From the NCBI GenBank assembly GCA_917880885.1, contig OU862913.1, forward strand, positions 3,844,001-3,908,000: a stretch of 64,000 bases of DNA, in the 5' to 3' direction. The stretch is from Limnephilus marmoratus (Eukaryota > Arthropoda > Insecta > Trichoptera > Limnephilidae). The notes beneath the pieces are model-generated. The model made no database searches and was not told the origin of the DNA. It saw nothing but the letters and a program-made list of their open reading frames with translations. Below, piece by piece: positions 10,687 to 56,475 of this stretch. The translations under genes were made by a program, and so were the position numbers. Numbering within the stretch: the stretch's first letter is position 1; every line of letters starts with the position of its first letter.

Positions 10687-10759
10687 CAAAGTTAAAAATA
10701 AATCTTTAATTCCCCTTTAGAGAACGTGAATGGCTGCAATAGGAAGACAAAAAAGGTTT

Positions 10760-11298
10760 TTATCCAGTATGGGTGCGTAAGTGCCTCGTTAAACGTGATA
10801 TTTCCGAGCAGGAGAAGTCACAATGGGGACAAGCAAAAGGTTTTACTTCAGTATGGCTGCGTAAGTGCACCATTAAATAAGATTTTTCTGAGCAGGAGTA
10901 GTTGCAATGGGAACAAGAGTGAGGGTTTTCTCCAATATGAGTGCGCAAATGCACTGTAAACGCTGATTTTTCGGAGCAGGAGTAGTTACAATGGGGACAG
11001 GAATGAGGCTTTTCCCCAGTATGGGTGCGTACGTGCCCTGTTAATGCTGACTTACGTGAGCAGAAGTAGTTACAATGGGAACAAGCAAAAGATTTTGCTA
11101 CGGTATGGGTGCGTAAGTGCGTTGTCAAATGTGACTTACGTGAGAAAGAGTAGTTGCAATGGTGACATGAATGAGGTTTTTCTCCAGTATGGATGTAAAG
11201 ATGCCTTGTTAATGTAGACTTGTGTGAGCAGGAGTAGTTACAATGAGAACATGAATGAGGTTTATCTCCAGGACGTGTCTTCAGGTCTGTTATCGTGT
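10760..11298 (-). CDS. Zinc-finger gene B, finger-array exon
   Basis: Exon with acceptor ATTTTCAG at 11299-11306 and first codon completed by the phase-1 G of the upstream acidic exon, giving Asp. It encodes a TDLK-containing lead and six C2H2 fingers (C-x2-C-x12-H-x3-H, CNYSCS type). The linkers are divergent: TGEKPHS twice, TVAKSFA, IGENPHS and TEVKPFA. Translation ends in a TAA inside the next linker (TG-stop-KPF), after which finger-like codons continue, so the array was once longer. The six fingers are intact with all zinc ligands. No frameshift is visible between the two exons. Expected role: nuclear DNA-binding factor. Whether it is expressed is unknown because no start exon was found. 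Confidence 0.65.
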
Positions 11299-15051: not shown

Positions 15052-15124
15052 GACGCCAACGGGACTTGAACCCGTGTCCTCTCGATTGCCGGTCGATTGC
15101 TCTTGACCACTGAGCTATGGCGGC
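15052..15124 (-). tRNA. tRNA-like, Ala(GGC)-like, array copy 1
   Basis: 73 nt with A box TAGCTCAGTGG, B box GGTTCAAGTCC, a six-of-seven acceptor stem and a good T stem. Anticodon loop CCGGCAA reads GGC, but the usual U33 is C. Probably tRNA-derived repeat sequence. Confidence 0.5.
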
Positions 15125-15474
15125 TTATTTCGTACCCGCCAAATGATTCAATATATGCTAGTGTTTCATTCAACAATTACTGCTTATTATATTTTTTCCA
15201 CCTGAAAACAACCAACTTTATTTTTGCAAGAGAAACATTGTAAGTGTTAAATCCCTCGCTAGGTGGCGTCAAGACAAATTATGTCTTCATTTATTGGGGA
15301 AATACTTAAACTTGTCAAATATTAATTATTATTTTTTAATTGTAAAACTAACGTTTTTTTTTTTTTAAGACAAGATTTTTTATGCATAGCACAAAGGGTA
15401 ACAATTATTATAAGCAATAATTATCAGCCTGAAACACTCATCCACATTGAAAAATCTTCCGAGAAAAGATACAT

Positions 15475-15547
15475 GACGCCAACGGGACTTGAACCCGTGT
15501 CCTCTCGATTGCCGGTCGATTGCTCTTGACCACTGAGCTATGGCGGC
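15475..15547 (-). tRNA. tRNA-like, Ala(GGC)-like, array copy 2
   Basis: Identical by eye to array copy 1 over the 73 nt. Confidence 0.5.
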
Positions 15548-15900
15548 TTATCTCGTACCCGCCAAATGATTCAATATATGCTAGTGTTTCATTCAACAAT
15601 TACTGCTTATTATATTTTTTCCACCTGAAAACAACCAACTTTATTTTTGCAAGAGAAACATTGTAAGTGTTAAATCCCTCGCTAGGTGGCGTCGAGACAA
15701 ATTATGTCTTCATTTATTGGGGAAATACTTAAACTTGTCAAATATTAATTATTATTTTTTAATTGTAAAACTAACGTTTTTTTTTTTTTTTTAAGACAAG
15801 ATTTTTTATGCATAGCACAAAGGGTAACAATTATTATAAGCAATAATTATCAGCCTGAAACACTCATCCACATTGAAAAATCTTCCGAGAAAAGATACAT

Positions 15901-15973
15901 GACGCCAACGGGACTTGAACCCGTGTCCTCTCGATTGCCGGTCGATTGCTCTTGACCACTGAGCTATGGCGGC
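15901..15973 (-). tRNA. tRNA-like, Ala(GGC)-like, array copy 3
   Basis: Same cloverleaf as array copy 1; unit otherwise intact. Confidence 0.5.
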
Positions 15974-16325
15974 TTATCTCGTACCCGCCAAATGATTCAA
16001 TATATGCTAGTGTTTCATTCAACAATTACTGCTTATTATATTTTTTCCACCTGAAAACAACCAACTTTATTTTTGCGAGAGAAACATTGTAAGTGTTAAA
16101 TCCCTCGCTAGGTGGCGTCGAGACAAATTATGTCTTCATTTATTGGGGAAATACTTAAACTTGTCAAATATTAATTATTATTTTTTAATTGTAAAACTAA
16201 CGTTTTTTTTTTTTTTTAAGACAAGATTTTTTATGCGTAGCACAAAGGGTAACAATTATTATAAGCAATAATTATCAGCCTGAAACACTCATCCACATTG
16301 AAAAATCTTCCGAGAAAAGATACAT

Positions 16326-16398
16326 GACGCCAACGGGACTTGAACCCGTGTCCTCTCGATTGCCGGTCGATTGCTCTTGACCACTGAGCTATGGCGGC
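16326..16398 (-). tRNA. tRNA-like, Ala(GGC)-like, array copy 4
   Basis: Same cloverleaf as array copy 1; unit otherwise intact. Confidence 0.5.
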
Positions 16399-16750
16399 TT
16401 ATCTCGTACCCGCCAAATGATTCAATATATGCTAGTGTTTCATTCAACAATTACTGCTTATTATATTTTTTCCACCTGAAAACAACCAACTTTATTTTTG
16501 CAAGAGAAACATTGTAAGTGTTAAATCCCTCGCTAGGTGGCGTCGAGACAAATTATGTCTTCATTTATTGGGGAAATACTTAAACTTGTCAAATATTAAT
16601 TATTATTTTTTAATTGTAAAACTAACGTTTTTTTTTTTTTTTAAGACAAGATTTTTTATGCATAGCACAAAGGGTAACAATTATTATAAGCAATAATTAT
16701 CAGCCTGAAACACTCATCCACATTGAAAAATCTTCCGAGAAAAGATACAT

Positions 16751-16823
16751 GACGCCAACGGGACTTGAACCCGTGTCCTCTCGATTGCCGGTCGATTGCT
16801 CTTGACCACTGAGCTATGGCGGC
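16751..16823 (-). tRNA. tRNA-like, Ala(GGC)-like, array copy 5
   Basis: Same cloverleaf; the unit is cut off about 40 bp downstream where the AT-rich joint begins. Confidence 0.5.
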
Positions 16824-17209
16824 TTATCTCGTACCCGCCAAATGATTCAATATATGCTAGTGTTATAAAAATATATAATATAAAAAATATATAAAAATAA
16901 TATAAAAATATATTATATAAATTACCCTTGTTACCCTTTGTGCTATGCATAAAAAATCTTGTCTTAAAAAAAAAAAAAAACGTTAGTTTTACAATTAAAA
17001 AATAATAATTAATATTTGACAAGTTTAAGTATTTCCCCAATAAATGAAGACATAATTTGTCTCGACGCCACCTAGCGAGGGATTTAACACTTACAATGTT
17101 TCTCTTGCAAAAATAAAGTTGGTTGTTTTCAGGTGGAAAAAATATAATAAGCAGTAATTGTTGAATGAAACACTAGCATATATTGAATCATTTGGCGGGT
17201 ACGAGATAA

Positions 17210-17282
17210 GCCGCCATAGCTCAGTGGTCAAGAGCAATCGACCGGCAATCGAGAGGACACGGGTTCAAGTCCCGTTGGCGTC
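17210..17282 (+). tRNA. tRNA-like, Ala(GGC)-like, inverted copy 6
   Basis: The only copy on the plus strand. It makes the insertion partly palindromic: copies 5 and 6 could pair over about 430 bp in single-stranded form. Confidence 0.5.
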
Positions 17283-24150: not shown

Positions 24151-24468
24151 AGATTGAGGCTACAGGGGCAACAGGCAAGAGCAGCAGATTGGCATCCGAG
24201 GAACAGCAAGGCGCTGGTTTGGTTATTCAGTGCCGAGAATCAGGAGCATACACGTAAGGCGTGGATGGAGAAGTCCGGGTCTTCAGGAGAAGACCAGAGA
24301 CCAGGTTCAGACCTCACGGAAGGCGTGCCGGGCATTTGAAGGACGACCAGGGTACAGGAGCCAGGAGACGGTCCGCGGAAGGGCGAGATCGGAGCAGCAG
24401 CAAGTCAACAGAGTCGTGAGTTGAGTGTTGTTTGTAAATTTTCTGCTTATTGATTGTATCTGTGTGAA

Positions 24469-24934
24469 GATGGAAGGGGGAGAACTGCCCAGGTTTTGTC
24501 ATTTGAGGGACAAACTGGAGACGTTCGTGTTGCAATACGAACAGTTCATCCTCGTCAATGATGACAAGATAAATTCGGTAGAAAAAAAGAGAGCGGTTTT
24601 AATATCTCATTTACACACAGAGACAATAGATTTATTGATTGATTTGTGTTTTCCTAAAAAAATTACAGATATTACGGTCGAAAATTTATTGTTATTACTA
24701 GAGAATCATGTAGGTATCAAACGAAATGTGTTCAAAGAGCGCGAAATTTTTTTTGCTACGAAACAAAAAAGTTCAGAATCAGTCACTGATTATATAGCAC
24801 GGTTAAGGAATCTCGTTAGATTTTGTAAATTCGAGGACAGACTGGAATATAATTTAAAAGATATTTTTGTCACCGGTCTTCGAGTGGGGCGAATTAAGGA
24901 AAATTATTTGTGGAAGCTGAAAACTTTTCATTAA
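24469..24934 (+). pseudogene. gypsy-1 Gag, N-terminal part
   Basis: Capsid-type Gag. The likely start ATG at 24470 follows the leader. The protein reads MEGGELPRFCHLRDKLETFV and has the retrotransposon-gag pattern FATKQKSSESVTDYIARLRN followed by DIFVTGLRVGRIKENYL. The frame then runs into KLKTFH-stop, while the continuation (EAENFSLKKVVECAIAMDS) sits one base back in the overlapping frame from 24910. A single-base loss is the simplest reading; a programmed -1 shift in mid-Gag would be unusual. The zinc knuckles fall in the next frame. Confidence 0.75.
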
Positions 24935-27900
24935 AAAAGGTTGTAGAATGTGCTATTGCTATGGATTCATTCGAGGTAATGAATAAGCAAATTAAAACGG
25001 AAAGTGTTGATTTAGTAAATAAATTTAAAAATACATCGAACAATTTGTCACGAAAACAAAATTCGGTGGGTAAACATGTTTTTAGAACTTCGGACAAGAA
25101 TGTTACATCGTACAGAGCGAGGTCAGCGGACCGAACAAAGTGTAAACATTGCGGGAATTATCACGATTCAGTAAACTGTAAATTTAAAGACGTGTTGTGT
25201 TATAAATGCAGAGTAAAAGGGCATATTGGGAAGATATGTCGCGGTTTAAATAATAATAACATTTCTTCAGTGTTCGTAAATACGCAGGAACATAAAAAAA
25301 TGTTGCGGATAAACGCAGTATATTGTGAACCAATATTGTGCAAAGTTTTAGAGAATAATGTGGAACTAAACGGTTTATTGGACACAGGGGCGGCAATTTC
25401 GATTTTGACGGACGAAGATTATGTTAAACATTTCAAACATTTGATGTTAAAACCAAAGGATTTAACCTTAATGGGTTACGCTAACTGTAAGTTAAAATTA
25501 TTGGGTTGTATCTTATTAACAGTTGATTTTAACGGTTATAGGGAAATGTTAGAATTTTGCGTAGTAAAACATGGAACAATTACGGTTCTAGGGCGTGATT
25601 TCATTAAAAAGTTTAATATTGGATTTACGGGCTTACAATCTACTTTATCCCAGGAGGGAAGTGAAAATGTTTCTCACAATATGGTTGAGAATAATACTAG
25701 TGTAATTGATAATTTAATTCGGAAATTCCCGGAGGTTTTTTCGGAGAAACTGGGTAAATTCAATAAATATAAAGTGCATTTGAAATTAAAAGAGAATGCG
25801 GAACCGAAATTCTGCAATCCGAGAAATATACCGTTTGCCTTAAAAGCAAAGGTTGAATCGGAATTGGGCCGGTTACAATCGGAAGGTATTTTAGTTCCGG
25901 TAAACTATAGTAAGTTTGCGTCACCAATCGTTCCCATAGTAAAAACTAATGGCGAAATAAGGATTTGCGGTGATTATAAGGCAACAATAAATCCACAGCT
26001 AGTGGTAGATAAATATCCGATGCCACGGATAGAATGGTTATTTTCTCAAATGGCGGGTGGAACAATTTTTTCCAAGATTGACTTGAGGCAAGCGTACCTA
26101 CAATTAGAACTAGATGAGGAAAGTCAAGATTTCACAACTATATCTACTCATTTAGGATTGTTTAAATTCACGAGATTAGTGTTTGGGATTAATAGCGCAC
26201 CAGCTATTTTTTGTAAAACGATAGCTTCATGCTTGCAAGGTTTGAAAAAAACAGCTGTATTTTTAGATGATATTGTGGTAACAGGAGATTCGGAAGAAGA
26301 ACATAATGAGAATTTAACAGCAGTGTTAAATAGATTAAAAGATTGTGGATTTAGTGTAAATATTCACAAGTGTATTTTTAAGGCGTCATCAGTAACTTTT
26401 CTAGGGTTTGAAGTTTCAAAGGAAGGAATTAAACCATTGAAAGACAAAACTATCGCGATTAGTAAGGTATCGCAACCTACAGACATTACGGAATTACGAA
26501 GTTTTTTGGGGTTAGTGAACTTTTACAGGTCATTTGTACCTAACATGTCTGTACTTCTAGATCCGTTACATAATTTATTGAGGAAAAATACACATTTTGA
26601 GTTTAATCAAGATTGCTTGGAAGCTTTTAATAAAATTAAGTCAATTTTATGTGATGATAGAGTGCTAGCTCATTATGATCCGGATGTAACATTGAAGATT
26701 GTTACAGATGCCTCAACAAAAGGGTTAGGAGCGACGCTTTTACATTGTTATGATAATAATTTACAGAGACCGATTTCTTTTGTTTCTCGAAAATTAACTG
26801 AAGCAGAAAAGAAATATTCGATTTTGGATTTAGAAGCAACAGCTATAGTGTTTGCGTTAAAAAAATTTTTTGAGTATATTTATGGAAGGGAATTCATTTT
26901 AGAAATAGATAATGAACCGTTATGTAGAATTTTTGGTGATAAGAAAGGTATCCCAGTATTAGCGTGTAACAGACTTCAACGTTATGGGGTAATTCTGTCG
27001 TCGTTCAATTATAAAGTACAGTACGTGAAATCAGCATTGAACTGTTCGGATTATTTGTCTCGGGTTCCTGTCGAGGAACCAGTTCACGTAGAGAATGACT
27101 TTGATACTCAAATTCTAAGTTTATTTAAAAATAACAGAGATTTACCTATAGATGTAGAGGAAATTAAATCGGAATCAAGTACAGATAAAATTTTATTGGA
27201 AATTAAACATTATCTCAGAACAGGGTGGCCAAATAAAATAAACAAGGAGGATTCAAAATGGATTTACTGGATTAAACGGAATGAGTTATCTATAATTGAT
27301 GATTGTTTTTTTTGGAATCATAGGCTAATAATTCCAGTAAGTTTAAGAGAAAAAATTTTAAACTTGTTACATAGATCTCATCTAGGTATAGCAAAGATGA
27401 AAGGTTTAGCCAGAGGTATATTTTGGTGGCCAGGGATAGATGGAAATATTGAACTTTTAGCGAGAGGATGCGAAATTTGTTCAGAGGTTCAACCTTCGCA
27501 ACCAAAGAGCGAATTGACTCCGTGGCCTATAACGGAAGAAATATGGAGTAGGGTGCATATTGATTATGCGGGCCCAGTTGCAAATAAATATTTTCTTGTA
27601 ATTATTGACTCAACCTCAAAATGGTTAGACTGTGTAGAAGTAAAGTCTCCAAATTCGTATAACACTATTAAAATATTAAAGGGTTTATTTAGTTATTTCG
27701 GGAGTGTACAGACAATAGTTTCAGATAATGGAGCCGCTTTCATGTCAGCGGACTTCAAAGAGTTTTGTGAGATGAATAACATCAAACATTTAACTACTCC
27801 GGTAAATCATCCACAATCAAATGGTCTAGCAGAAAACGCGGTTCGAACGTGTAAAAATTTTAAAAAAAAAATGATGATAAGAAATAAGTTTCAGTCAGGT

Positions 27901-28155
27901 TATGAGGAAAAATTAGGAAATTTTTTAATTGATTACAGAAATGCACCACACTGTACAACTGGTTTAGAACCTGCAGTTGTAATGTTTGGAAGGAAACTAA
28001 GGTCAAACTTAAACAGTTTTGTACCGAGAGGGGGGAGAGATAAGGATAATAGAATTAAGAAAGAAACAAAAATTAAAATGTCTAAATGTCAGGAAAATCA
28101 AAAATATTATTATAAAAGAAATAATCGGTGGGTTTTTCGATTAATCAAAAGGTAA
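24910..28155 (+). pseudogene. gypsy-1 Gag C-terminus and Pol
   Basis: 1081 codons. Order: a zinc-knuckle pair (CKHCGNYHDSVNC, CYKCRVKGHIGKIC); aspartic protease with LLDTGAAIS (D158); RT with KIDLRQAYLQL and FLDD at 451-454; RNase H with VTDAS and YSILDLEATA; integrase with an HRSH...C-x2-C zinc region and catalytic D885, D939, E975 (D-x53-D-x35-E). The frame ends prematurely at KRNNRWVFRLIKR. The integrase C-terminal tail continues one frame over at 28128, so a base is missing just before it. Apart from the two lost bases, all catalytic residues are present. It works as a polyprotein cleaved in virus-like particles. Confidence 0.88.
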
Positions 28156-28508
28156 TGGTTAGAGATTTCAGAGACCAAAACAATGATAAATGGGTACCAG
28201 GGAAAGTGTATAAACAATTAGGAAAAAAACTTTATATAATTGAGGTAAATTTAAATGGTAAAATTATGTTTTGGAAAAGGCATTTTGATCAGTTGTCTAA
28301 ATTATGTGTGTCATGGGAAAAGAAACACAGCAATCCTTATGTCGCGTCTGAGACGAAGAGACTGTCGTATGATGAATACGATGTGTCCAGCTTTGGCCTG
28401 GATGACAGTCTAATGGGTTTTTCTCCTTCTCCTTCCAGCTCCAGTGATCCAGTGGCGTCAACGTCGGGAAATTGGAAGGACCGACTACGACCACGAACAC
28501 ACAGATGA
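28128..28508 (+). pseudogene. gypsy-1 integrase C-terminal tail
   Basis: Reads FSINQKVMVRDFRDQNNDKW, then IMFWKRHFDQLSKL, an acidic and Ser-rich end, and RLRPRTHR-stop. It matches the same region of gypsy-2 (KVMTRDFRSQ...VWKRHLDQL...RLRPR). Separated from Pol only by the one-base frameshift. Confidence 0.75.
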
Positions 28509-33682: not shown

Positions 33683-36060
33683 ATCTGAAGGCGCATCCTG
33701 TGGATAAACGATTATCTTATCCTCGTCACTACTCCTGCTCTCATAAGAATAATTTTGAAAGTCACCTTTGCAGCAATACTGGAGTTGAACTTTTTTCATG
33801 TTCCAAGTGCAACTGTTCAAGTTCTCAAAAGGAATATTTGGGGAAACACATGCTAGTTCAAAGCGAAAAAAAACCTTTTTCATGTTCCGTTTGCAACTAT
33901 TCGTGTTCTCAAAAGGGCAATCTGAAGATCCACATGCTGTCTCACAGTGGAGAAAAACCTTTTTCTTGTTCCGAGTGCAACTATTCGTTTTCTCGAAAGG
34001 GCAGTCTGAAGATCCACAAGCTGACTCACAGTGGAGAAAAACCTTTTTATTGTTCCTAGTGCAACTACTCATGTTCTCAGACGGGCGATTTGAAGAAACA
34101 CAATCTGATTCACAGTGGAGAAAAACCTTTTTCTTGTTCCGAGTGCAACTATTCATGCTCTCAAAAGGGCAGTCTGACGATCCACAAGTTGACTCACAGT
34201 GGAAAAAAAACCTTTTTCTTGTTCCGAATGCAACTATTCATGTTCTACAAAAAGCAGTCTGACAATCCACGAGTTCCGAGTGCAACTATTCGTGTTCTCT
34301 AAAGGGCATTCTGAAGAGACACAAGCTGACTCACAGTGGAGAAAAACCTTTTTCTTGTTCCGAGTGCAACTATTCATGCTCTCAGAAGGGCAGTCTGAAG
34401 ATCCACATGCTGATTCACAGTGGAGAAAAACCTTTTTCTTGTTCCGAGTGCAACTATTCGTGTTTTCGAAAGGGCATTCTGAAGATACACAAGCTGACTC
34501 ACAGTGGAGAAAAACCTTTTTCTTGTTCCGAGTGCAACTATTCATGCTCTCGAAAGGCCAATCTGTCGATCCACAAGCTGACTCACAGTGGAGAAAAACC
34601 TTTTTCTTGTTCCGAGTGCAACTATTCATGTTCTCGAAAGGGCAGTCTGAAGATCCACAAGCTGACCCACAGTGTAGAAAAACCTTTTTCTTGTTCCGAA
34701 TGCAACTATTCATGTTCTACAAAAAGCAGTCTGACTATCCACAAGCTTACTCACAATGGAGAAAAACCTTTTTCTTGTTCCCAGTGCAACTATTCATGTT
34801 CTCAGAAGGGCAGACTGACGGTCCACATGCTGACTCACAGTGGAGAAAAACCTTTTTCTTGTTCCGAGTGCAACTATTCTTGTTCTCAGAAGGGCAGACT
34901 GACGGTCCACATGCTGACTCACAGTGGAGAAAAACCTTTTTCTTGTTCTGAGTGCAACTATTCATGTTCTCAGAAGGGCAGTCTGAAGATCCACATGCTG
35001 ATTCACAGTGGAGAAAAACCTTTTTCTTGTTCCGAGTATTACTATTCGTGTTCTCGAAAAGGCATTCTGAAGAGACACAAGCCGACTCACAGTGGAGAAA
35101 AACCTTTTTCTTGTTCCGAGTGCAACTATTAATGTTCTCGGAAGGGCGATTTGAAGAGACACATGTGCAACAAGAGACACCAAGTGTACCGAGATACCGA
35201 GTGCAACTATTCAGGTTCTTGAAAAAGCAGACTGACGATCCACAAGCCGATTCACAATGGAGTAAAAGCTTTTTTTTGTTCGAATGCAATTATTCGTACT
35301 CTCAAAAGGGCATTTTGACGATCAACATGCTGACTCACAGTGGAGAAAAAGCTTTTTCATGTTCCGATTGTAACTATTCATGTTCTCGTAAGGGTTGTCT
35401 GACAATCCACATGCCTGCTCACAATGGAGAAAAACCTTTTTCTTGTTCCAAATGCAACTATTCATGTTCTACAAATAAGCAGTCTGACGATCCACACACT
35501 GACCCACACTGGAGAAAATCCTTTTTCTTGTTCCGAGTGCAACTATTTATGTTCTCAAAGGGACATTCTCACGATCCACATATTGACTCAGAGTGGAGAA
35601 AAAGCTTTTACATGTTCCAAGTGCAACTATTCATGTCCTCCGAAGGGAGATTTGCAAAAATACATACTGACTCACTTTGGAGAAAAACCTTTTTCTTGTT
35701 TCGATGTAACTATTCATGTTCTAAAAAAAGCAATCTGACGATCCACATGCTGATTCACAGTGGAGAAAAACCTTTTTCTTGTTCCGATTACAACTACTCA
35801 TGTTCTACAAAAGCAATCTGATGATTCACAGACTGACCCACAGTGGAGAAAAACCTTTTTCTTGTTCCGAGTGCAACTATTCATGTTCTCGAAAGGGCAG
35901 TCTGACGATTCAAAAGCTGCATTACAGTTGCGACAAACCTTTTTCTTGTTCCGAGTGCAACTATTGTTCTCAAGAGGCAACCTGAAGAGCTTTAATCACG
36001 GCGGAGAAAATCTTTTTCATAATCTGATTGCCGCTATTCGTGTTCTCAAATGAGAGATTC
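33683..36060 (+). pseudogene. Zinc-finger gene D, ~28-finger array exon, broken
   Basis: Exon begins DLKAHPVDKR and is followed by about 28 tandem 84-bp units, each one C2H2 finger: HSGEKPFSCSECNYSCSxKG, then the helix and H-x3-H. Most units are so alike that recent tandem exchange is likely. Breaks seen: GAG to TAG at 34057; an extra A in the linker near 34205; a partial-unit deletion near 34272; TCA to TAA at 35130; frame disruptions near 35160-35290, 35470 and 35810; and a decayed end after 35980. The longest intact run is about ten fingers (34276-35132). As it stands only about three fingers would be made. Helix residues vary little (KGSLKIH, KGILKRH, KSSLTIH), so an intact protein would have read a repetitive target. 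Confidence 0.75.
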
Positions 36061-37530
36061 GAAGAAGCTCGCATACACTTGTAAACATTGGTCTTATTTC
36101 CTTTTAACCCATTGGCCACAGAATTGATTAAAAAAATTGGCCTTCAGCACTGAATTTATTTTGTACCAAAAATTGAAAACCTGCATCGGTGTACTAAATC
36201 CATTGTAACTTTTAAACCATATGTTGAAATGAATTAATTTATGTTAACACATATATTTAACAAAATATTATATTTAAGATCATCATTGGTCGTGTTTACC
36301 TTAGCAGAAAAGATGAGCTCTTTTGGCTGATAAGGGAGCCACGATTCTTACTTAGGTTCTATGTTATAATATTATTCTTTTTATTTTTTTTTTCAAAGAC
36401 ATACACAGTACGTTATGATTAAAGGTATAAGGTATATTAAATATGCATGGTTATAGTACCTATTATGTAAGTCCGTAGAATATCATTAAGTGATTTCGCC
36501 TGGGATTTGAATGGTTCTTAAACTTAACTAATGAATGAATGAGTAAAGTAATAGAAAGGAAGTTATGTTTGGAGATAAAGGGATATTTTAAGATCAAGAA
36601 TTACCTACATGCTCACGAATTGTAATAAAAGTTTAATGAAAAGATATGTGTAAGAAGTTTTAAAATAAATTCTATCAGGCCAAGAAATGTAGTAAATTAG
36701 TTTTGTACTTTTGCAGGAATCGTGAAAAAAGTCTAAGTGTAGTAATTTTTCACAGTGCGTATAAGTTTATTTTGTATAAATTATTTATTTTTTCATGTAG
36801 GTACTTAAGTACTTGTTATTAAATGTTTATTAATACAGCGCATTTCAGAAGGAATATAATCGTAGGTTATTGTGGTTTGAAAAATGTAAGTGTTCTGCAT
36901 TTGTGTTGTTTTAAAATTAGGTACAATAAATTGATTTCTATTTGTCATTATTTTGTAAAATTCTTGATTTTCTTTGTTATTTTTTGTCACATTTTTCATC
37001 GTGGATTATAATATTATCTTTCTGATTAGGTGTTTTCTGTAAGAAAAATAAGACCCGATGTAAGACAAGTTGTTCACGCCTTTATTGTTACATGTGGTTC
37101 TTTCGAAAATACCTATCGTGTGCCCTCTGCCATAATTTGTTCAGTTCGAATAAAATCACCGCACGGGACAGACAGAAGGTCCCACAACCGCCATAATTTA
37201 CAGTTGTAATAATTAGGCCGCTTAATAAGACAGAATTCGTTAACCGCACCGCAAATGTCTACGCGTGAATCTCGCCGTTCTATGCGCTACTTCACAAATC
37301 GTTTAATACGCTAAAATATCGCTTGCTTACCATTAGCGTACGCCATTAACTCCACAAAGCAAATATCACCAATTTCCCTTCCTCATTTTTCCAAACTAAG
37401 AATTACCTTCCCGGTGACATAAACTCAGTGCATGGAGGGTATACAGCAGTTTGGAGATATTGGTAAGTCTACTCCAGGAATATGGAAATACATAACCGCA
37501 ATCATCAATTTTACAGTCCACAAAACGCTG
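36061..37530. other. No gene seen
   Basis: AT-rich sequence downstream of the finger array; no signal recognised. Confidence 0.6.
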
Positions 37531-37531
37531 A

Positions 37532-37630
37532 AACATTTGATCCCTCAATCTAGAGAGGGAACATTTGCTCCCTCAATCTAGAGAGGGAACATTTGATCCC
37601 TCAATCTAGAGAGGGAACATTTGCTCCCGC
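37532..37630. repeat. 28-bp tandem repeat, 3.5 copies, palindromic core
   Basis: AACATTTG(A/C)TCCCTCAATCTAGAGAGGG repeats at 37532, 37560, 37588 and partly 37616. Each unit contains CCCTC...TCTAGAGAGGG, which can fold back, and alternates A/C at one position. Confidence 0.85.
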
Positions 37631-37850
37631 CGCAACACAAGTATTTTTTTGGATTAAGTGTGAATAGATTTAACCTATATTTTACCGTTTATCTTAAATG
37701 AGTAGGATTTATAAAAAAATATTAAGAAATCGTAAAGTTTATAACCGCGCAAATCCTGCGTGTATATTACTTTGAAACTCCGTGAGAGGTACTTATTCGA
37801 GTCAACATAGGATATTTTCATTTTTGTATGTTTTCTGCGATAATGGAAGG
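37631..37850. other. No gene seen
   Basis: AT-rich, nothing recognised. Confidence 0.5.
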
Positions 37851-38613
37851 ACTCCAGATACTAATATATACAGCCTGTATGTCAGACGAATATCTACAGC
37901 TCATATGTTGGACTAATATCTATGAACTTCATAGTGAGGACTAATATCTACAGAGCTAAGGTCGGACGAATATCTTTGACGGTCCCAGTGGTGACTAATA
38001 TCTATTGAGCGTAGGTTTGACTAATATCTACACAGGGCAGCTGAGCAAGAGGTTGTACGGAAAAGCATAAATTACTTCAATTATGTAAAGGTAAAATTTA
38101 AAGTAGGTACGTACTAGAAGTTTTTGCATTATATTACGTATTTTGCTGTTTACGAGGACAATAATTTATTGAACAAACATGGAGGTCATAATACAAAGAT
38201 ATTTATTTATTTCGAAATACACGGCACCACAACCTAACCTAACCTTACCTTACCTAACTGACATAGAAATGGTCACGGTAACAGAATAAATAATTTAGAA
38301 GCACTCGAAATAAAGAATACTGTTAAAATAAAAACCCAAATCCTTAATAATTAGCTAAATGTGTCCAATATTAGGGATTTTTACATACAAACAAACATAA
38401 ATTAAGTTTTTTAAACTGCATACGCAATATTACGTTATTCTAATATTCTATATATAATTGCAAATCCAGCTGTAGATATTCGTCCACACTTGAGTTCTGA
38501 TAGATATTAGTCAGCAGTTTGAGCTGTAGATATTCGTCCTCACTTTGGTTCTCATAGATATTAGTCCGATTTGTTCAGTTTTTGGAATTCCTGTAGATAT
38601 TAGTAGACGCCTC
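37851..38613. mobile_element. Foldback with phased GACTAATATCTA motifs
   Basis: The left arm holds seven copies of GAC(T/G)AATATCTA, starting at about 37859, 37885, 37911, 37939, 37965, 37993 and 38019 (steps of 26 or 28 bp). The right arm holds five copies of the reverse complement, starting at about 38470, 38498, 38524, 38552 and 38591. The core of ~420 bp is AT-rich and non-coding. It resembles a transposon with clustered subterminal transposase-binding motifs. Confidence 0.7.
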
Positions 38614-38696
38614 CTGATGATGTCTATGATGCTCGGATTTGTGAAACCTATTGTCATAATGGATAAAACATTTGAATAGCTTCGTTTTAAAATAAA

Positions 38697-38870
38697 TGGC
38701 TGGCCTAGGAAATGTTTTCAATAATTATAATAATAAACGTTTTACGAATGGTAGGAAACAGTGGTCCAATTTTGGAGCGCTATCAATCGCAGAAAAATAA
38801 AAGTGGTCCATTTTTCGACGATAATCGCTCCAGTGGTTAAACTGAAAATAGATCCACTTCAAGTGGTCCG
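38697..38870 (+). repeat. Rep-4, copy 1
   Basis: GGCTGGCCTAGGAAATGTTT...TTTTACGAATGGTAG...CAATCGCAGAAAAATAAAAG matches the reverse complement of 46055-46225. Degenerate palindromes as in copy 2. Confidence 0.65.
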
Positions 38871-39320
38871 ATATAAACATTTTAAAACACTTATTTTGTA
38901 TAATACATGCGTGAAAAATAATTAATAAATGGATTAAAAAAATGCACGTAAAAAACCAGCCGGGCGTGAAATTCAAAACAAATAAATACTTTTAACATAC
39001 TTATTTGAATATTCTTAAATTATGAACATTATTAATTTTAACTGCCAGTAACTATTAAGCTATACATGATAATAATATTGGAATGATTTTTATTGCGCCG
39101 TTTTTGTGAAACATTACCTCAAGTGCGCTGTACAAATTAATAATACATTCCTACAATGCTCTATCTTACTACAGAGCCTTATTAATAAAAATCAACACTT
39201 AACGACCGTTAGACGGTGTTTCAGTTCTATGCTGTGTATAGACTGTACATTTTATTTTCCGCAACGCTACTAATGACATAATCACATTTTTATATTGGCA
39301 GCATTATTGATCTTCGGTAG
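38871..39320. other. No gene seen
   Basis: AT-rich, nothing recognised. Confidence 0.5.
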
Positions 39321-39324
39321 ATTT

Positions 39325-39347
39325 GCGCATGCGCGGCCGCCATGTTT
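39325..39347 (+). promoter_or_regulatory. NRF-1/EWG-like and YY1/Pho-like site pair
   Basis: GCGCATGCGC at 39325-39334 is a perfect NRF-1 (insect Erect wing) palindrome. It is followed at once by GCCGCCATGTTT, a YY1/Pleiohomeotic-type site. Such pairs mark TATA-less promoters. No gene starting here was identified, though a MADF-like exon lies 1 kb downstream. Confidence 0.35.
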
Positions 39348-40319
39348 TTCACGATTTCCATTGTAATGACCAATTCACTATTATATTAGTATAATTGAAT
39401 AAAATTACTACGACCTGTGTTATTTTTGTCAGTTTTATCAGTTGTTAATTTCATTTTGTTAACATAAAAAATAGGATATTTCGTATATTTTTTTTTATGC
39501 GCATAAGTTAAATAAAAATTTCATCAAAGTAATTTTATTTAATAATATGAATGGCTTGTGTAAATAAATAACAAATTCGAGAAATCAACGTTTCAACTGA
39601 GCAAAAATTTATCCAAAAAAGATATTTTTCAGTTTCTATCGGGTAATAATTGTTATAATTTTTAATTTTAAGCTTAAATATGGCAATTTCAATATCCTAA
39701 GGTATGTTTAAAATTCAAAAATCTAAAACGTAATTTTATGTAGTTTCTATAATGACTTTTGTTTTTACGACATCTAAAAAAATAAATATATATGACCTTC
39801 AAAATACCCTGGAAAAATTCTAAAATCCGATGGTGTATTATTTTTACTAACCGTGTAAACAAAAGATAAACAACCACCTTTGGCTGTATAAGAAATGTGT
39901 ATATTCCTTGAAATATTTTTTGTCAATTTTTAATTGGTTATATTTTCATATGCACTATCAAATACAAAATTTTAACGACGTTTTTTTAGTAAAGCTGCTA
40001 GAGTTTTACAAAATTATACACAATATTTTATATTTTTAAAAAAGAAAACGTGTTGTTTTACTAAGGATGACTATGCCGATTCTATAGTTATAATTGTAAT
40101 TTAACTATATTAACCACGCACAGGCTGCTCCTCAGTGGTTCCCATTATTTTTATGATTTTCAAAATTTGTAAATATTAATTGTAAGATATGGGAAAAATA
40201 AAGGGAAAAGAAATAATATATATTTGCTTAAATGTTGAGCCATTTGCTAGGTACCTGGAACAGAAAGTGTTATTAACTTATTAGTACAGTCACAAATCTA
40301 TAAAATCTGTTACGTTTCA
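39348..40319. other. No gene seen
   Basis: AT-rich; if the site pair upstream is a promoter this could be a first intron. Confidence 0.4.
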
Positions 40320-45939: not shown

Positions 45940-46225
45940 TACAGTGTAGCGGTCATTTGAAAAGCGATGCGTCTCGTTCTAACGGCATATCGTTCAAACG
46001 AGACAGCGCTAGTTCGCTTAAACCCATCCCGTCGTGATGGGATCAGTAGCGACATGTGATCGAAAACCTTTTTTTGTTGTTTATCCACTGGAACGATTTC
46101 GGTCGAAAAATCGACCACTTTTATTTTTCTGCGATTGAAATCGGTCCAAAAATGGACCGATTTTTCTACCATTCGTAAAATATTTATTGTAATTATTTAA
46201 AACCTTTCCATGGCCAGCTATTAGT
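45940..46225 (-). repeat. Rep-4, copy 2, with four hairpins
   Basis: Hairpins in order: 45970-46003 (GTCTCGTTCTAAC/GTTCAAACGAGAC), 46022-46040 (CCCATC/GATGGG), 46101-46116 (GGTCGA-AAAA-TCGACC), and 46138-46163 (AAATCGGTCCA-AAAA-TGGACCGATTT). The 46055-46225 part is the inverted homologue of 38697-38870. Confidence 0.7.
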
Positions 46226-46381
46226 TTTATCGAATAGCTGATAAAATATTCTTTATGTCTATGACCTTATCGGTTGTCTTTGAAGTGTTATTTAACGAGT
46301 TTTCGCGGTTTTGTATAGCGTCCTGTCAGAAAACAAAATAAAACTTTTCAGTGTTTCGACGAATTTTGGTCTCTATCTAAA

Positions 46382-49848: not shown

Positions 49849-49897
49849 AATCGTTATAAAGACACGTTAAATTAATTTTGGTTTTCTGTTGTTTCAG

Positions 49898-50465
49898 AAA
49901 TGGACATGGACAGAGTGAGCGACGAGGACGACGAAGCGAGCGACGTCGACCACAAAGAGAGCGATGAGGATACCTTCTGCATGCCACCAATACCTTATCA
50001 TAATATTATAAACGTTTCACCTAACTCCGCTATGGCCATAGACTTTAGTAGACAAGACCAGGTAGATAGTGAGGCAATGTGTTCGATTCTGCCGCCTGAA
50101 GGTTACTCTTTCGATTGGTCCAAAGATATCTCACGTTTTACTGGGATAAGGGAGACATTCACAGGCACGCCAGGACCAACTTTCAATACCGTCGAAATGG
50201 GCAAACCTGTGGATGCCTTTCTTAAAATCGTTGATGCAGATTTCGTTGAACTGATCGCGAGAGAGACCAACAGGTATGCAGATCAATGGATTGCGAAAAA
50301 ACAATTTAAGCGCCATGCGCGTACCAATAAATGGGCTCTCACGAATAAAGAGGAAATGTATGTATTCTTGGCAATTTTAATGTATCAAGGTATTAGTCCC
50401 CTTCCTGTTGAAAAATACTACTTCTTTTAAAAAAAACTCACCGCCATGCCTTATTTCAGACGAGT
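49898..50465 (+). pseudogene. piggyBac transposase-derived exon 7, N-terminal half
   Basis: Acceptor GTTGTTTCAG; the phase-1 C from exon 6 plus AA gives Gln. It codes an acidic start (MDMDRVSDEDDEASDVDHKE), a middle unrelated to known motifs, and the piggyBac N-terminal transposase region FTGIRETFTGTPGPTFNTVE, then DADFVELIARETNRYADQWI and TNKEEMYVFLAILMYQGI. A TAA stop at 50428 interrupts it. The frame is otherwise open (AMPYFRRV) up to the BEL/Pao insertion after 50465 and resumes in the same frame at 57157. The intact domain would bind and cut DNA; with the stop, frameshift and truncation downstream it cannot. Confidence 0.75.
50461..50465. other. Target-site duplication, left copy
   Basis: CGAGT, repeated at 57157-57161 on the other side of the BEL/Pao element. 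Confidence 0.85.
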
Positions 50466-50954: not shown

Positions 50955-51234
50955 TTGTTCTAGCAAGGTTAATTTTATAAGAAAGGTTTCAGATTTACGT
51001 AATTTTTTGGTAATATTCTTGAAATACCTACCTCTTATAGAATTATTTAGCGTCAATTTACGTATTTTTTTGGTAAATTTGAATAGAACCTACAAAATCT
51101 TTATTGGTTGCTTAATTTCATAATTACTCAAATAAAGGTTTGTGATTACGTATTCTTTGGTAATTTACGAAATACCTTATAGGTAGTTTTGTGAAAATTT
51201 AGTGACGAACATTTAAAAATTATTTTTATTTAAA

Positions 51235-54200
51235 ATGCCCTTCATTACGGAAGAGTCGAGTGACCAAACCGATAGAAAGTTGATCATTTTGACAGCTAAA
51301 AAGGAGAGGCTTTTTTCCCGGTTAAACGATTTGTTTAATTTGGCTAAAAACATTTCCACTTTTGAATCAAGGCAGAATGAAAACTTCTTGTCTAAGTCAG
51401 AAAGAATTGAAGAGATGCGGGAGCAGTTTGAAAATGTTATTGATGATATTAATAATATCCAATTGATTTCAAACCCGACATTTGAACCGGATTATCAACA
51501 ATTGGATGCTTTTGAGGATTTGTTTGGTAGTGTGAAACGCGTACGTGACAAAATTCAAAATGCAACAACAACAACGTCACAGAATAACGTCCGCGATTCT
51601 CGCGTACCAGTCATCAAACTTCCCCCTATAGAACTTCCCTCCTTCAACGGTAAAATGGATACCTGGGCAAAATTTTATGAGTCATTCAAATCGAACATCC
51701 ATAATAATACACAGCTGAATGATTCTCAACGTGTGCAGTATTTGGTAGGTAAATTAACGCATAGCGCGTTGCAGATTACCGCGGGTATTATACCTACCGG
51801 AGAGACGTACAAGATTATATGGGATTCGTTGGTTTCGAAATATCAAGATAAACGTGCACTAGGCACATATTATTTGAATAATATTCTTGACATAAAGGGT
51901 TGCACAAATACATCTGTTAGTCTTGATTCATTTGTTGAAAGGTATTCTTCGTCTGTTTTGGCGTTAAAACAGTTAGATATTGAAGATTTAACTGACTTCA
52001 TATTATTACACTGTGCGTTAAGGAAAATTGATTCCCAAACGTCACAAAATTTTGAAATGTCAGTTAGAACTCAAGAAATTCCTGCATACAATGAGTTGAT
52101 CTCATTTGTGAAAGATCAAGTAAAAATATTAGAACGGACAAGCAATAATCACGGTGTTATAAATAAGGCGCCTACCTCTTCATCACGTGCAAATAATTAC
52201 AAAACGTTCGTCGCGAGCAACGAGAGTATTCATGTTCCGGCTTCGCCCGCGAAAGTTTGTATTTATTGCAACAAAACTGGTCATTCAATTAATGTTTGCT
52301 CACAGTTTAAAGGTTTGAGTTCGCCACAGGCCCGATTTGAATTCATTAAATCAAAACATGCCTGTGTGAACTGTCTCAGCGGGTTGCATACAATCAATTC
52401 GTGCAAATCGTCGGTTGTTTGCGAGGTATGCAAAAAACGTCACCATACATTCCTACACTTCGAGAGTAGTGGTAGAGTTAAAACCAATACTCACGTACAT
52501 ACGGCTCAAATACCTACCAGTGACGAGTCGTCTACGCCTCCTTTACCAGGGCCATCCAACGTCAATATTTCGTGTAATTGCAATGCGAAACTAGAGGAGC
52601 CCTCGCACGTTAACTCTTCGTGTTCATTGTCAGCTAAAGTAGCTCCTAATACTACAATTTTACTATCAACTGCTCAAGTGTATGCAAAACTTAAAAATGG
52701 AAATAAAATTATTGTTCGGTGTCTAATTGATAATGGCTCACAAAATCATTTGATCACGGCCGATTGTTGCAAGGCGCTGAATTTGCCAATAATTCCTTTG
52801 AGTAATTCTTTTGTTAAAGGAATTGGTTCAGCATCACGACAAATTCTTGGTTACGTTTATTTGGACATTGAGTCTCGCGTATACCCAAATAATAAATATA
52901 ACATATTTGCGCTCGTTGTCGAGTGCATTACCGACAAGTTACCTAATCACTACATAGCAAAGGTTGATATGAGGTACTTAGAGGGCATACCCCTCGCTGA
53001 TTTAACGTGGAACATTCCCGGAAACATAGATGTTGTCTTAGGGGCACAATTATTTCCACATATCTATTTAGGGGACAGGGTTGAATCAGGGACTAGTGCA
53101 CCCCCCGCATTATCGACCGCGTTTGGTTTCGTGCTAATGGGCGACTACCCTGATAATGTGCTTAATACAAGTACTTCATTTTCCGCACTTGCACTTAATG
53201 ATTTAGTCCAAAAATTTTGGCAGTTAGAAGAAATCCCTAACATGCAATTTTTAAGTCCGGAGGAGACGGAATGTGAGAATCTGTTTACTTCATCTATCGC
53301 TCGCGCTGTCAATGGAAGGTATTCTGTTGCTTTACCTTTCTGCAAAGACCCAAAACAATTGGGTAATTCTCTTACTACCGCCCAGCGCCGATTTATGGCC
53401 TTGGAACGAAAATTTAAACAATCACCTTCTTTACAGGAGAATTATAACAAAGTTATCGGTGAATATATTGACAGCAATTATTTGTCAGAAGTCAAAGAGT
53501 CTGAAATTACAGATGATGGATATTACATCCCGCATCATGCCGTCAATCGTCCGGACAAACCTATGCCTCGGATTGTGCTCGACGCTAGCGCCATAACTCA
53601 TTCAGGGCTGTCATTAAATGACGTCTTGCATACTGGTCCCAATTTGCAAGCTGATTTGTTTTTGCTTTTGCTTGACTTTCGTCTTTTTCCCATCGCTATG
53701 ACTGCGGACATAAAGCAAATGTATTTACAGATTGAAGTTCCTACCAAGCATCGTAGATATCTAAGAATCTTATTTCGATTCTCCAACAACGATCTCATAC
53801 GGACTTTTCAATTTAATCGGGTCCCTTTCGGACTAACGGCAAGTCCATACTTAGCAATGAGGACTGTTCGTCAGTTAGCCCAAGATATGAGACCACATTT
53901 CCCGGATGCTGCCAATGTGGCAGAATCCAAGTTGTATATGGACGACCTGGTCTATTCTATTGCAGATGAGTCCAGCGCCGTACGTCTTTCTCGAGAATTA
54001 ATCTCGTTATTCAAGTCCGGTGCCTTTGATTTGGTCAAATGGACTAGTAATTCTCAAGTTGTACTTGAAAACCTTCCAGATTCTCACCGCAGTGTGGTGG
54101 ATTTCACTGTTGGTTCTAACAATGCCTCGAAGGTGTTAGGCCTCTCGTGGGAACCAGTTGATGACAGCTTCTTCTTTACGACTTCTTATGTTCAGGAGAA

Positions 54201-56475
54201 GTGTACAAAGCGGAACATACTCTCTATAGTCGCCCGCTTATTCGATGTCCTTGGCTTGGTCGCCCCCATCATTCTGTACGCTAAATTGCTTATTAAGGAG
54301 CTATGGCTGTGCAACATTGGTTGGGATGATACCCCCCCTGAGAGCGTTATTCAAAGGTTCTCGGCACTCACACAGGAATTTCCTTTAATTTCTACGATAA
54401 AAATCCCACGTCATGTTGGTGTCCTAAAGGACAGTACAGTGCTCATTGTCGCTTTCTGCGATGCGAGCCTGAATGGTTATGGCTGTGTGATATATTTACA
54501 CACAACTGATCCGTCTGGGAATATTACCGTGAGATTGTTGTGTGCAAAATCAAAGGTCTCTCCCACCAAAGTGACAACACTCGCTCGTTTGGAGCTATGT
54601 GCCGCGGTCTTGATGTCCAAACTAATACGGACGGTTCAAGACAATTATCGTTCGCGTCTTCTTATTGCCGGGATATATGCGTTTTCAGATTCGACCATTG
54701 CGCTCTCGTGGATACATTCTTCACCGCATCGATGGTCGGTGTTTGTTAGTAATCGCGTGGCTCAATGTCAGGAGAATTTGTCTCCTGAGAACTTCTATCA
54801 TGTCGCCGGTAGCGAAAATCCTAGTGACTGCCTTTCACGTGGAGTGCTTCCTTCCCAACTCGTTTCACACGAACTATGGTGGAACGGCCCATCATGGATT
54901 CGCAGCACACCTTTGGAATGGCCAATAAAACCTTTTCATTTCACAAATACTGGTGAAATGCCTGAGCACAAAACTAATGTGCTCACTGCAATAGTTCAAC
55001 GTGAACAATCGGTCCTGAGTGAACTTGCTCAGCGCATTTCCACATGGGATAAACTTTTAAGGATTGTCGTTTATGTTCTCCAATTCGTAAAAAGGGTATC
55101 ACCTTCTTCTGGAACGGTCAATAATCTTATGACTGCTGAAAAGGCTGTGATTCGTTCTGTGCAGAGTATTCATTTTGAAGAAGATATTGCTGCACTCCAG
55201 AAAAGCAAATTGCCTTCAAAGAAGCTTCGGAATTTATCAGTTTTTCTCGATGAGGATAATTTATTACGTATTGGGGGGCGGCTTTCTAAATCGGACTTAC
55301 CATTTGAGGTTAAACATCCGGTATTGCTACCTAAACATGACTGTGTTGTGGATCTTATCATCGATCATTTCCATGTCATGAACTGTCATACAGGCCCTGG
55401 ACTCCTTATGTCCATCTTACGGCAGCGCTATTGGATATTAGATGCCAGGACTGTTATTAGGGCAAAAGTGCGGAAATGCAATTGCTGCTTCCGCTCAAAT
55501 CCGTCGCATCCTACACCGAAGATGGCGGATTTACCTTCATATCGTATTGTAGAAGCAAAGGCTTTCGTTCATACCGGTGTAGATTACGCAGGTCCCCTCC
55601 GTATCACGCTTGCTCGTCGGAGAGGACAACATTCACAAAAGGCATATATCTGTCTTTTCGTATGTCTTGTAACTAAGGCCATTCATATTGAGTTGGTCTC
55701 TGACCTAACTTCAAATGCTTTCCTGGCTGCTTTCAGCCGTTTTATTTCTCGGCGTGGCCCTGTGTCATGCTTGTATTCAGATAATGGCACCAATTTTATT
55801 GGTGCAAAGGCACAATTAGATGATCTCCATAAGTTTTTAGTTGAGTCAGAATTTGAGCCCGCTTTAAAGCGCGAACTCGCTAATCGCCGGGTTGAGTGGA
55901 AAATGATTCCCCCACGCGCGCCTCATTTCGGGGGTATATGGGAGTCAAACGTAAAGAGTATGAAGACTCATTTGTACCGTGTGATCGGAACTCAGCTCCT
56001 CACTTATGAAGAACTACAGACCGTTCTGGTTCAAATAGAGTGTTTGATGAACTCGCGCCCACTCACAGTCGTGTCTTCCGAACCCTATCCGGAAGTGATT
56101 ACTCCTGCGCATTTTCTAATGTCGACACCTTTACAGTACTTACCTGCTTCTGTTTTGACAGACGCTAAAACAAACTTTGCTCAGCGCAAGCAGTTATTAG
56201 ATGGCATGGTTCAATCCTTCTGGAAAAAGTGGCGTTTGGAATATCTGCACACGTTGCAAGTCAGGCAGAAGTGGACTACGACTGACCATCCTATTAAGGT
56301 TGGAACTGTCGTACTTGTGGGACAGGAGGATTCGCCTCCGTTAAATTGGCCTTTGGGCGTAATCACGGACGTTCATCCTGGTACTGATAATATAATTCGA
56401 GTTGCGACGGTAAAGACCAGATACGGATTTTTTAAACGTCCTGTCGTTAAATTATATCCCATTCCAACGCAATAA
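51235..56475 (+). CDS. BEL/Pao Gag-Pol polyprotein, 1746 aa
   Basis: Start ATG at 51235 after the leader; stop at 56473. Domains in order: N-terminal coiled region; Gag core (about 125-300, with LPSFNGKMDTWAKFYESFKS); zinc knuckles (about 342-412, CIYCNKTGHSINVC, CVNCLSGLHTINSC, CEVCKKRHH); aspartic protease with IDNGSQ (D499); RT with MTADIKQMYLQIEV and YMDD at 901-904; RNase H region with FCDASL (D1076) and ARLELCAA; integrase with an HHCC-like zinc region, then catalytic D1450 (GVDYAGP), D1516 (YSDNGTNF), E1570 (GGIWESNVKS); and a C-terminal domain typical of the class. Length and order match BEL/Pao. The protease reads DNG where DSG or DTG is usual. No envelope. It integrated into exon 7 of the piggyBac-derived gene. 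Confidence 0.93.
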   Translation: MPFITEESSDQTDRKLIILTAKKERLFSRLNDLFNLAKNISTFESRQNENFLSKSERIEEMREQFENVIDDINNIQLISNPTFEPDYQQLDAFEDLFGSVKRVRDKIQNATTTTSQNNVRDSRVPVIKLPPIELPSFNGKMDTWAKFYESFKSNIHNNTQLNDSQRVQYLVGKLTHSALQITAGIIPTGETYKIIWDSLVSKYQDKRALGTYYLNNILDIKGCTNTSVSLDSFVERYSSSVLALKQLDIEDLTDFILLHCALRKIDSQTSQNFEMSVRTQEIPAYNELISFVKDQVKILERTSNNHGVINKAPTSSSRANNYKTFVASNESIHVPASPAKVCIYCNKTGHSINVCSQFKGLSSPQARFEFIKSKHACVNCLSGLHTINSCKSSVVCEVCKKRHHTFLHFESSGRVKTNTHVHTAQIPTSDESSTPPLPGPSNVNISCNCNAKLEEPSHVNSSCSLSAKVAPNTTILLSTAQVYAKLKNGNKIIVRCLIDNGSQNHLITADCCKALNLPIIPLSNSFVKGIGSASRQILGYVYLDIESRVYPNNKYNIFALVVECITDKLPNHYIAKVDMRYLEGIPLADLTWNIPGNIDVVLGAQLFPHIYLGDRVESGTSAPPALSTAFGFVLMGDYPDNVLNTSTSFSALALNDLVQKFWQLEEIPNMQFLSPEETECENLFTSSIARAVNGRYSVALPFCKDPKQLGNSLTTAQRRFMALERKFKQSPSLQENYNKVIGEYIDSNYLSEVKESEITDDGYYIPHHAVNRPDKPMPRIVLDASAITHSGLSLNDVLHTGPNLQADLFLLLLDFRLFPIAMTADIKQMYLQIEVPTKHRRYLRILFRFSNNDLIRTFQFNRVPFGLTASPYLAMRTVRQLAQDMRPHFPDAANVAESKLYMDDLVYSIADESSAVRLSRELISLFKSGAFDLVKWTSNSQVVLENLPDSHRSVVDFTVGSNNASKVLGLSWEPVDDSFFFTTSYVQEKCTKRNILSIVARLFDVLGLVAPIILYAKLLIKELWLCNIGWDDTPPESVIQRFSALTQEFPLISTIKIPRHVGVLKDSTVLIVAFCDASLNGYGCVIYLHTTDPSGNITVRLLCAKSKVSPTKVTTLARLELCAAVLMSKLIRTVQDNYRSRLLIAGIYAFSDSTIALSWIHSSPHRWSVFVSNRVAQCQENLSPENFYHVAGSENPSDCLSRGVLPSQLVSHELWWNGPSWIRSTPLEWPIKPFHFTNTGEMPEHKTNVLTAIVQREQSVLSELAQRISTWDKLLRIVVYVLQFVKRVSPSSGTVNNLMTAEKAVIRSVQSIHFEEDIAALQKSKLPSKKLRNLSVFLDEDNLLRIGGRLSKSDLPFEVKHPVLLPKHDCVVDLIIDHFHVMNCHTGPGLLMSILRQRYWILDARTVIRAKVRKCNCCFRSNPSHPTPKMADLPSYRIVEAKAFVHTGVDYAGPLRITLARRRGQHSQKAYICLFVCLVTKAIHIELVSDLTSNAFLAAFSRFISRRGPVSCLYSDNGTNFIGAKAQLDDLHKFLVESEFEPALKRELANRRVEWKMIPPRAPHFGGIWESNVKSMKTHLYRVIGTQLLTYEELQTVLVQIECLMNSRPLTVVSSEPYPEVITPAHFLMSTPLQYLPASVLTDAKTNFAQRKQLLDGMVQSFWKKWRLEYLHTLQVRQKWTTTDHPIKVGTVVLVGQEDSPPLNWPLGVITDVHPGTDNIIRVATVKTRYGFFKRPVVKLYPIPTQ

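Follow-up and report, generated by a model that had tools for sequence, protein, structure and literature searches.

A numerous family of non-coding foldback transposons with motif arrays in Limnephilus marmoratus, most likely derived from MULEs

The foldback element described here, located in the window (the whole 64,000-nucleotide stretch of DNA that was analysed), is one old, decayed copy of a young and very numerous non-autonomous family. We regard this family as a high-copy non-autonomous cut-and-paste DNA transposon, most likely a MULE derivative of the Phantom/Tm1-like foldback kind (probability about 0.7). The assignment relies on three features together, namely target duplications of 8 or 9 bp, an outer 9 bp that is not inverted, and arrays of the motif within the inverted arms; it is supported by a coding MULE family of the same genome that has the same end design, and by Muta1 and Tm1, two MULEs with the same kind of ends. 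Membership in the MULEs is likely but unproven, because the transposase that moves the family was not found. The family adds a large, recently active foldback group to a genome with a young coding MULE family. With possible engines and a natural series of end arrays of 4-9 sites in one genome, the question of why some transposons use many binding sites would become directly testable.

The window element and its family

The element spans positions 37850 to 38614 (765 bp) and consists of two inverted arms around a non-coding interior. Both borders were fixed by other copies, are sharp in the 20 copies with flanks, and lie one base further out on each side than in the preliminary description. The window copy is 96.1% identical to the consensus of 20 copies. 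Its features are as follows.

37850..38614, plus strand: whole element, a non-coding foldback transposon copy; similarity to other copies ends at these positions in most of 20
37850..37858, plus strand: outer left end GACTCCAGA, without an inverted counterpart at the other end (comparison of copies)
37859..38030, plus strand: left array of 7 motif copies, starting at 37859, 37885, 37911, 37939, 37965, 37993, and 38019
38031..38472, no strand: interior without coding sequence, partly absent from the 405-431 bp variants
38473..38605, minus strand: right array of 5 inverted motif copies, starting at 38473, 38501, 38527, 38555, and 38594
38606..38614, minus strand: outer right end, reading GGAGGCGTC inward (comparison of copies)
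37838..37849, no strand: left flank; target duplication no longer intact (agreement with the right flank at 3 of 8 bases)
38615..38626, no strand: right flank; target duplication no longer intact (agreement with the left flank at 3 of 8 bases)

In the family, the left end is GACTCCAGA-TACTAATATCTACAG and the right end, read inward, is GGAGGCGTC-TACTAATATCTACAG. The outer 9 bp are non-inverted and the outermost motif marks the start of the inverted part; such non-inverted outer motifs outside the inverted repeat (GACTCCAGA versus GGAGGCGTC) are a Tm1-like feature. The arms are about 180 and 140 bp long, in line with the inverted repeats of >100 bp by which MULEs are recognized, and match each other in inverted orientation at 74% over 95 nt and 85% over 39 nt, with the motifs in register.

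Searches with GACTAATATCTA (GACG being a regular variant), allowing up to 2 mismatches on both strands, gave 12 matches in the element segment, compared to a mean of 0.243 and a maximum of 3 in 1000 dinucleotide shuffles. The whole window contains 23 matches (shuffle mean, 8.06; standard deviation, 3.20; largest, 17; 100 shuffles). The 12 matches, 7 direct and 5 reverse-complement, bear out the foldback with opposed motif arms that had been proposed from the sequence of the window. The spacings given there were likewise correct: 26, 26, 28, 26, 28, and 26 bp in the left arm and 26-28 bp among four motifs of the right one (28, 26, and 28 bp). The outermost right motif lies a further 39 bp out. 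It had also been stated that nothing between the arms is coding, and in the 20-copy consensus the longest stop-free stretches indeed comprise just 71 and 49 codons (then 48 and 46), of which the first two cross the motif arrays. A gene was rejected as an explanation, given the absence of a long frame and the dispersal of copies with exact ends, and so was a virus, with 0 exact matches of a three-motif pattern in viral_contigs.

Two further repeats flank the element. A 28-bp unit with an inner palindrome is present in 3.5 copies at 37532-37628, 220 bp to the left, and a 155-bp dispersed repeat at 38688-38842, directly to the right, recurs in inverted orientation at 46079-46229 (82.6% identity).

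The preliminary description had suggested a genome search for further copies, and this search uncovered a dispersed family with common ends. The host assembly (1.63 Gb, 67 contigs) contains 2,869 exact matches to the 50-bp left end and 6,427 to a 39-bp piece of the right end, with 0 occurrences for the controls, which were the same end sequences read backward; because the matching was exact, both figures are lower bounds for the number of ends. With thousands of exact ends, the element is not a single-copy oddity. Besides the window copy, 39 copies (40 of 2836 candidates were scored) show 83-93% identity over most of the query. Two samples were compared. Sample A comprises 20 copies, including the window copy, from among those most similar to it. 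Sample B was taken from the top of the list of exact 50-bp left ends on contig C1 (20 places) and, being picked in this way, leans to young copies.

In sample B, 18 copies have both ends within the stretch (the right ends of L081 and L088 fall outside it). Ten of these are 405-431 bp long, with four more at 481-593 bp and another four at 744-895 bp. The number of motif matches per copy ranges from 4 to 8 in direct and from 4 to 9 in inverted orientation; array length is thus variable, as in the Tm1-like Phantom foldback. The first 33.4 Mb of contig C1 contain 36 left ends. For 14 of them an exact partner right end lies no more than 15 kb away, and in 3 of the 14 pairs the ends are >900 bp apart (2,102 bp; 2,402 bp, in L081; and 6,521 bp, in L088). 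L081 was rejected as a coding copy: its plus strand has no stop-free stretch of 80 codons, and those on the other strand do not exceed 96 codons. L088 contains consensus positions 1-127 and 513-747, followed by a break, and therefore looks interrupted. No long frame was seen in 381 bp from the middle of the 2,102-bp pair (G000:C1:33315483-33317584). L081, read together with L097 (G000:C1:4304170-4309100), carries a nested insert of ~1.96 kb that starts with CAGGGCCG, ends with CTG, and has GAGCGTAG on both sides; judged by eye, this CAG...CTG insert with its 8-bp duplication is hAT-like.

Target-site duplications were expected to mark a transposon family, and duplications of 8 bp were found, along with others of 9 bp. 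Among young copies with both ends read, they are perfect in 19 of 19 (sample B; 8 bp long in 11 copies and 9 bp long in 8): the 18 copies with both ends in the stretch have 10 exact 8-bp and 8 exact 9-bp duplications, and L081, when read further, added an exact 8-bp one. L088, whose right end lies outside the reading, is not among the 19. Because L080, L092, and L094 share flanks, the 19 duplications represent 17 distinct events. Sample A (20 copies) has 10 exact 8-bp duplications, 3 exact 9-bp duplications, and 2 with 7 of 8 bases matching, and 5 copies are without any; the left end of L014 was placed by hand at its variant first base. Cross-copy controls gave 0 of 380 pairs matching at 7/8 or 8/9. 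An exact duplication is absent in L009, L010, L015, L017, and L028, although the left 8 bp of L028 recur 5 bp into its right flank. The window copy has lost its own duplication (3 of 8 bases match). Its flanks, over at least 36984-40057, are also present around L010 (G000:C8:3364700-3368400), about 0.5 Mb away; because these flanks are common to both, the two copies descend from a single insertion, which was afterwards duplicated along with the adjoining sequence.

Layout and conservation of the motif arrays

The regular layout of the window copy extends to the family. Among motif spacings of <60 bp in 38 copies, 171 are of 26 bp, 135 of 28 bp, and 3 of 27 bp, and a 39-bp spacing (33 cases) marks the outermost right motif. 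The preliminary description held that the motif is kept while the sequence between its copies is not, which is well supported by the 93% mean pairwise identity of the 12 consensus units against 34% for the next 12 bp. It further held that the motif is kept in helical phase, which is not supported: taking 10.5 bp as one helical turn, the sites of the left arm fall at 0, 0.48, 0.95, 0.62, 0.10, 0.76, and 0.24 turn, so that neighbouring sites are on roughly opposite faces and a similar phase recurs only at every second site (54 bp).

The spacers form two alternating classes, of 26 and 28 bp, with a likeness of 48% within the 26-bp class and 63% within the 28-bp class, compared to 34% for all pairs, and the right arms of several copies have gained 28+26 pairs. 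Since spacers of one class are alike and such pairs are gained, duplication of a 54-bp dimer seems to shape the arrays. The earlier argument that they are not simple tandem duplications accordingly holds only in part: the motif is kept and the spacer is not, but duplication of the dimer has contributed to their growth. An alternative is that the arrays arose only by minisatellite expansion within a transposon and have no binding function. Array length does shift by 54-bp dimers, as it would through slippage or unequal exchange, whereas simple growth accounts poorly for units that, within one element, are 93% alike in the 12-bp core and only 34% alike in the spacer.

Substitutions bear on the same alternative. 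Copies of sample A diverge from the consensus by 1.95% in the motifs (55/2814), 3.33% in the arm spacers (106/3184), and 2.92% in the middle (269/9220). Private substitutions differ little between motif (37/2814, 1.31%) and spacer (57/3164, 1.80%), as minisatellite growth would have it, whereas substitutions common to several copies are rarer in the motif (18/2814, 0.64%) than in the spacer (49/3164, 1.55%), although these cells are not independent. Eight short copies of sample B show the same direction in small numbers (private, 0.99% in motif versus 1.11% in spacer; shared, 0.33% versus 0.71%), with L092 and L094 left out of the count as the same event as L080. On balance, we consider minisatellite growth without binding quite improbable. 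The motif constraint would agree with selection that acted in earlier rounds of transposition and not once the copies had inserted, which is suggestive only, because the copies are related. The most probable role of the motifs is that of putative transposase-binding sites.

A doubtful extension of this reading is that the 26/28-bp ladder with its 4-9 sites per arm represents a distinct kind of transposon end, in which the 54-bp dimer (5.1 turns) would be the functional unit, recognized by an undescribed transposase lineage, and array length would set mobility, leading to thousands of copies.

Candidate transposases and related systems

Of 97 matches to the MULE domain in the assembly, 85 score 53-59 bits. 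We read 40 of the 97 together with 1.5-4 kb of flanking sequence, among them every one of the 10 whose scores fall outside the main cluster; none of these 40 is the transposase gene sharing the motif at its ends that the preliminary description had proposed to look for. Nor does any copy of the foldback family that was read code for a transposase; the MULE locus L070 holds a separate, shortened copy of that family, which faces away. A search for remnants of MULE proteins in the foldback consensus was negative (best E value of 0.048 among 120 proteins). The lack, among the loci read, of a coding copy with foldback-family ends and of a remnant in the consensus counts against a MULE origin, and the one family in which a FLYWCH plus MULE transposase was seen is distinct and has different ends.

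In that coding MULE family, the 24 loci compared with one another show 98.4-99.8% identity to L036. Five further loci are also members, so that 29 of the 85 matches of similar score are assigned to it. A representative element (L059:2040-5615; 3,576 bp) has a frame with FLYWCH and MULE domains. The ends of the family combine non-inverted outer 8 bp (GGGTCTAG and GGGAATGG) with long inverted arms containing TTCTACGCCG-like units every 14-16 bp, and 6 of 7 copies are flanked by duplications, of 8 bp in two and 9 bp in four (L034 has none). The family looks recently active; L031, L074, and L075 are internally deleted derivatives of it. Its end design is that of the foldback family, with non-inverted outer ends, arrays in both arms, and 8- or 9-bp duplications, but it differs in its motif, the 14-16-bp spacing, and the open FLYWCH plus MULE frame. 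As the ends are different and do not match, it was rejected as the parent of the foldback family, and the likeness between the two motifs is no better than chance (30-37% of shuffles reach its score), a further point against the MULE assignment.

If the family is indeed a MULE derivative, a transposase made by another element would bind the 12-bp motif repeatedly along both arms and bring the ends of the element together; it might then cut at the non-inverted outer ends and re-insert the element at a cut staggered by 8-9 bp, while the arrays would lengthen and shorten by the 54-bp (26+28) dimer. The duplications of 8 or 9 bp fall within the 8-10 bp reported for MULEs in the available part of the Muta1 paper (PMC5225508). 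They are equally a feature of Merlin, which counts against the MULE assignment.

The main rival, which we rate as unlikely, is accordingly that a Merlin (IS1595-type) transposase moves the family, with the same anatomy and a different enzyme. According to the sections available of one study, Merlin elements also make 8- or 9-bp duplications (PMC8101967). The assembly has 114 matches to the IS1595 domain, which fall into several groups of nearly equal score and many of which are in open frames of at least 300 codons. The right end of the foldback family starts with GG; in Merlin families, however, it is the 5' repeat that starts with GG, as far as the same partial source goes (PMC8101967), whereas the left end is GA in most foldback copies. 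In addition, one 3' flank was read in each of two Merlin groups, for 740 and about 460 bp beyond the stop, and neither contained the motif array.

P and hAT elements make 8-bp duplications and Galileo makes 7-bp ones, and the ends of all three start with CA or TA-G. Movement by a P/Galileo-like or hAT transposase would agree with the roughly one-half of family duplications that are 8 bp long, and Galileo, a foldback of the P superfamily in Drosophila, has several transposase-binding sites repeated in its arms, which sets a precedent for the proposed function of the motif (PMC3688188, available part). On the other hand, 8 of the 19 duplications are 9 bp, against a strict 8 bp, and the family ends lack a CA or TA-G start. 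This origin appears highly improbable. Galileo itself differs in its long direct repeats within 1.2-kb arms, with three sites shown (PMC3688188, same part). Rehavkus, described in the portion of its source at hand as having a 9-bp duplication, a minisatellite before the 3' repeat, and a PHD-finger transposase (PMC6446971), is not a match, with 11 of 19 duplications being 8 bp and arrays at both ends.

The MULE reading finds its closest parallels in two described systems, both known to us from parts of the respective papers. Tm1 of root-knot nematodes is a Mutator/Foldback element of the Phantom type with non-inverted outer motifs (7 bp, compared to 9 bp here), target duplications of 8-10 bp, and short-motif arrays of variable number in inverted arms, most copies being non-coding (PMC3169594). 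It differs in having tandem units of 13-15 bp, as opposed to a 12-bp motif every 26 or 28 bp, in a known copy with a FLYWCH/MULE transposase, none having been found here, and in a far lower copy number (PMC3169594). Muta1, a MULE of Aedes aegypti that has been called a type 2 foldback element, carries 12-bp repeats (9 copies) in its inverted arms and has 8- or 9-bp duplications and many non-coding derivatives of variable array length; it differs in the 3-4 bp between repeats (14-16 bp here), a near-palindromic 10-bp outer motif, and a known active transposase (PMC5225508). Neither the long spacers nor the alternation of 26 and 28 bp came up in the accessible parts of the Muta1 and Tm1 literature, and a literature search that covered neither the motif itself nor Repbase listed no family with this motif. 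Going by the same parts, Muta1 and Tm1 together show the main features, and the foldback family is of a described kind.

Other features of the window

A 425-bp unit at 14897-16864 is present in 4.6 tandem copies (99%), each with a predicted tRNA-Ala (GGC), and two further predicted tRNA-Ala (GGC) genes are found at 17210 and 20629. Tandem 84-bp repeats at 1915-2597, 10750-11271, and 33788-35965 encode C2H2 zinc-finger arrays, the last of which has frame breaks. Several open frames resemble mobile elements by eye: non-LTR retroelement-like at 12542-14913 (where 13165-14910 was the only one of these frames compared with other proteins), Gypsy-type at 24425-28508, one with a piggyBac-type N terminus at 49876-50430, and BEL-type at 51217-56475.
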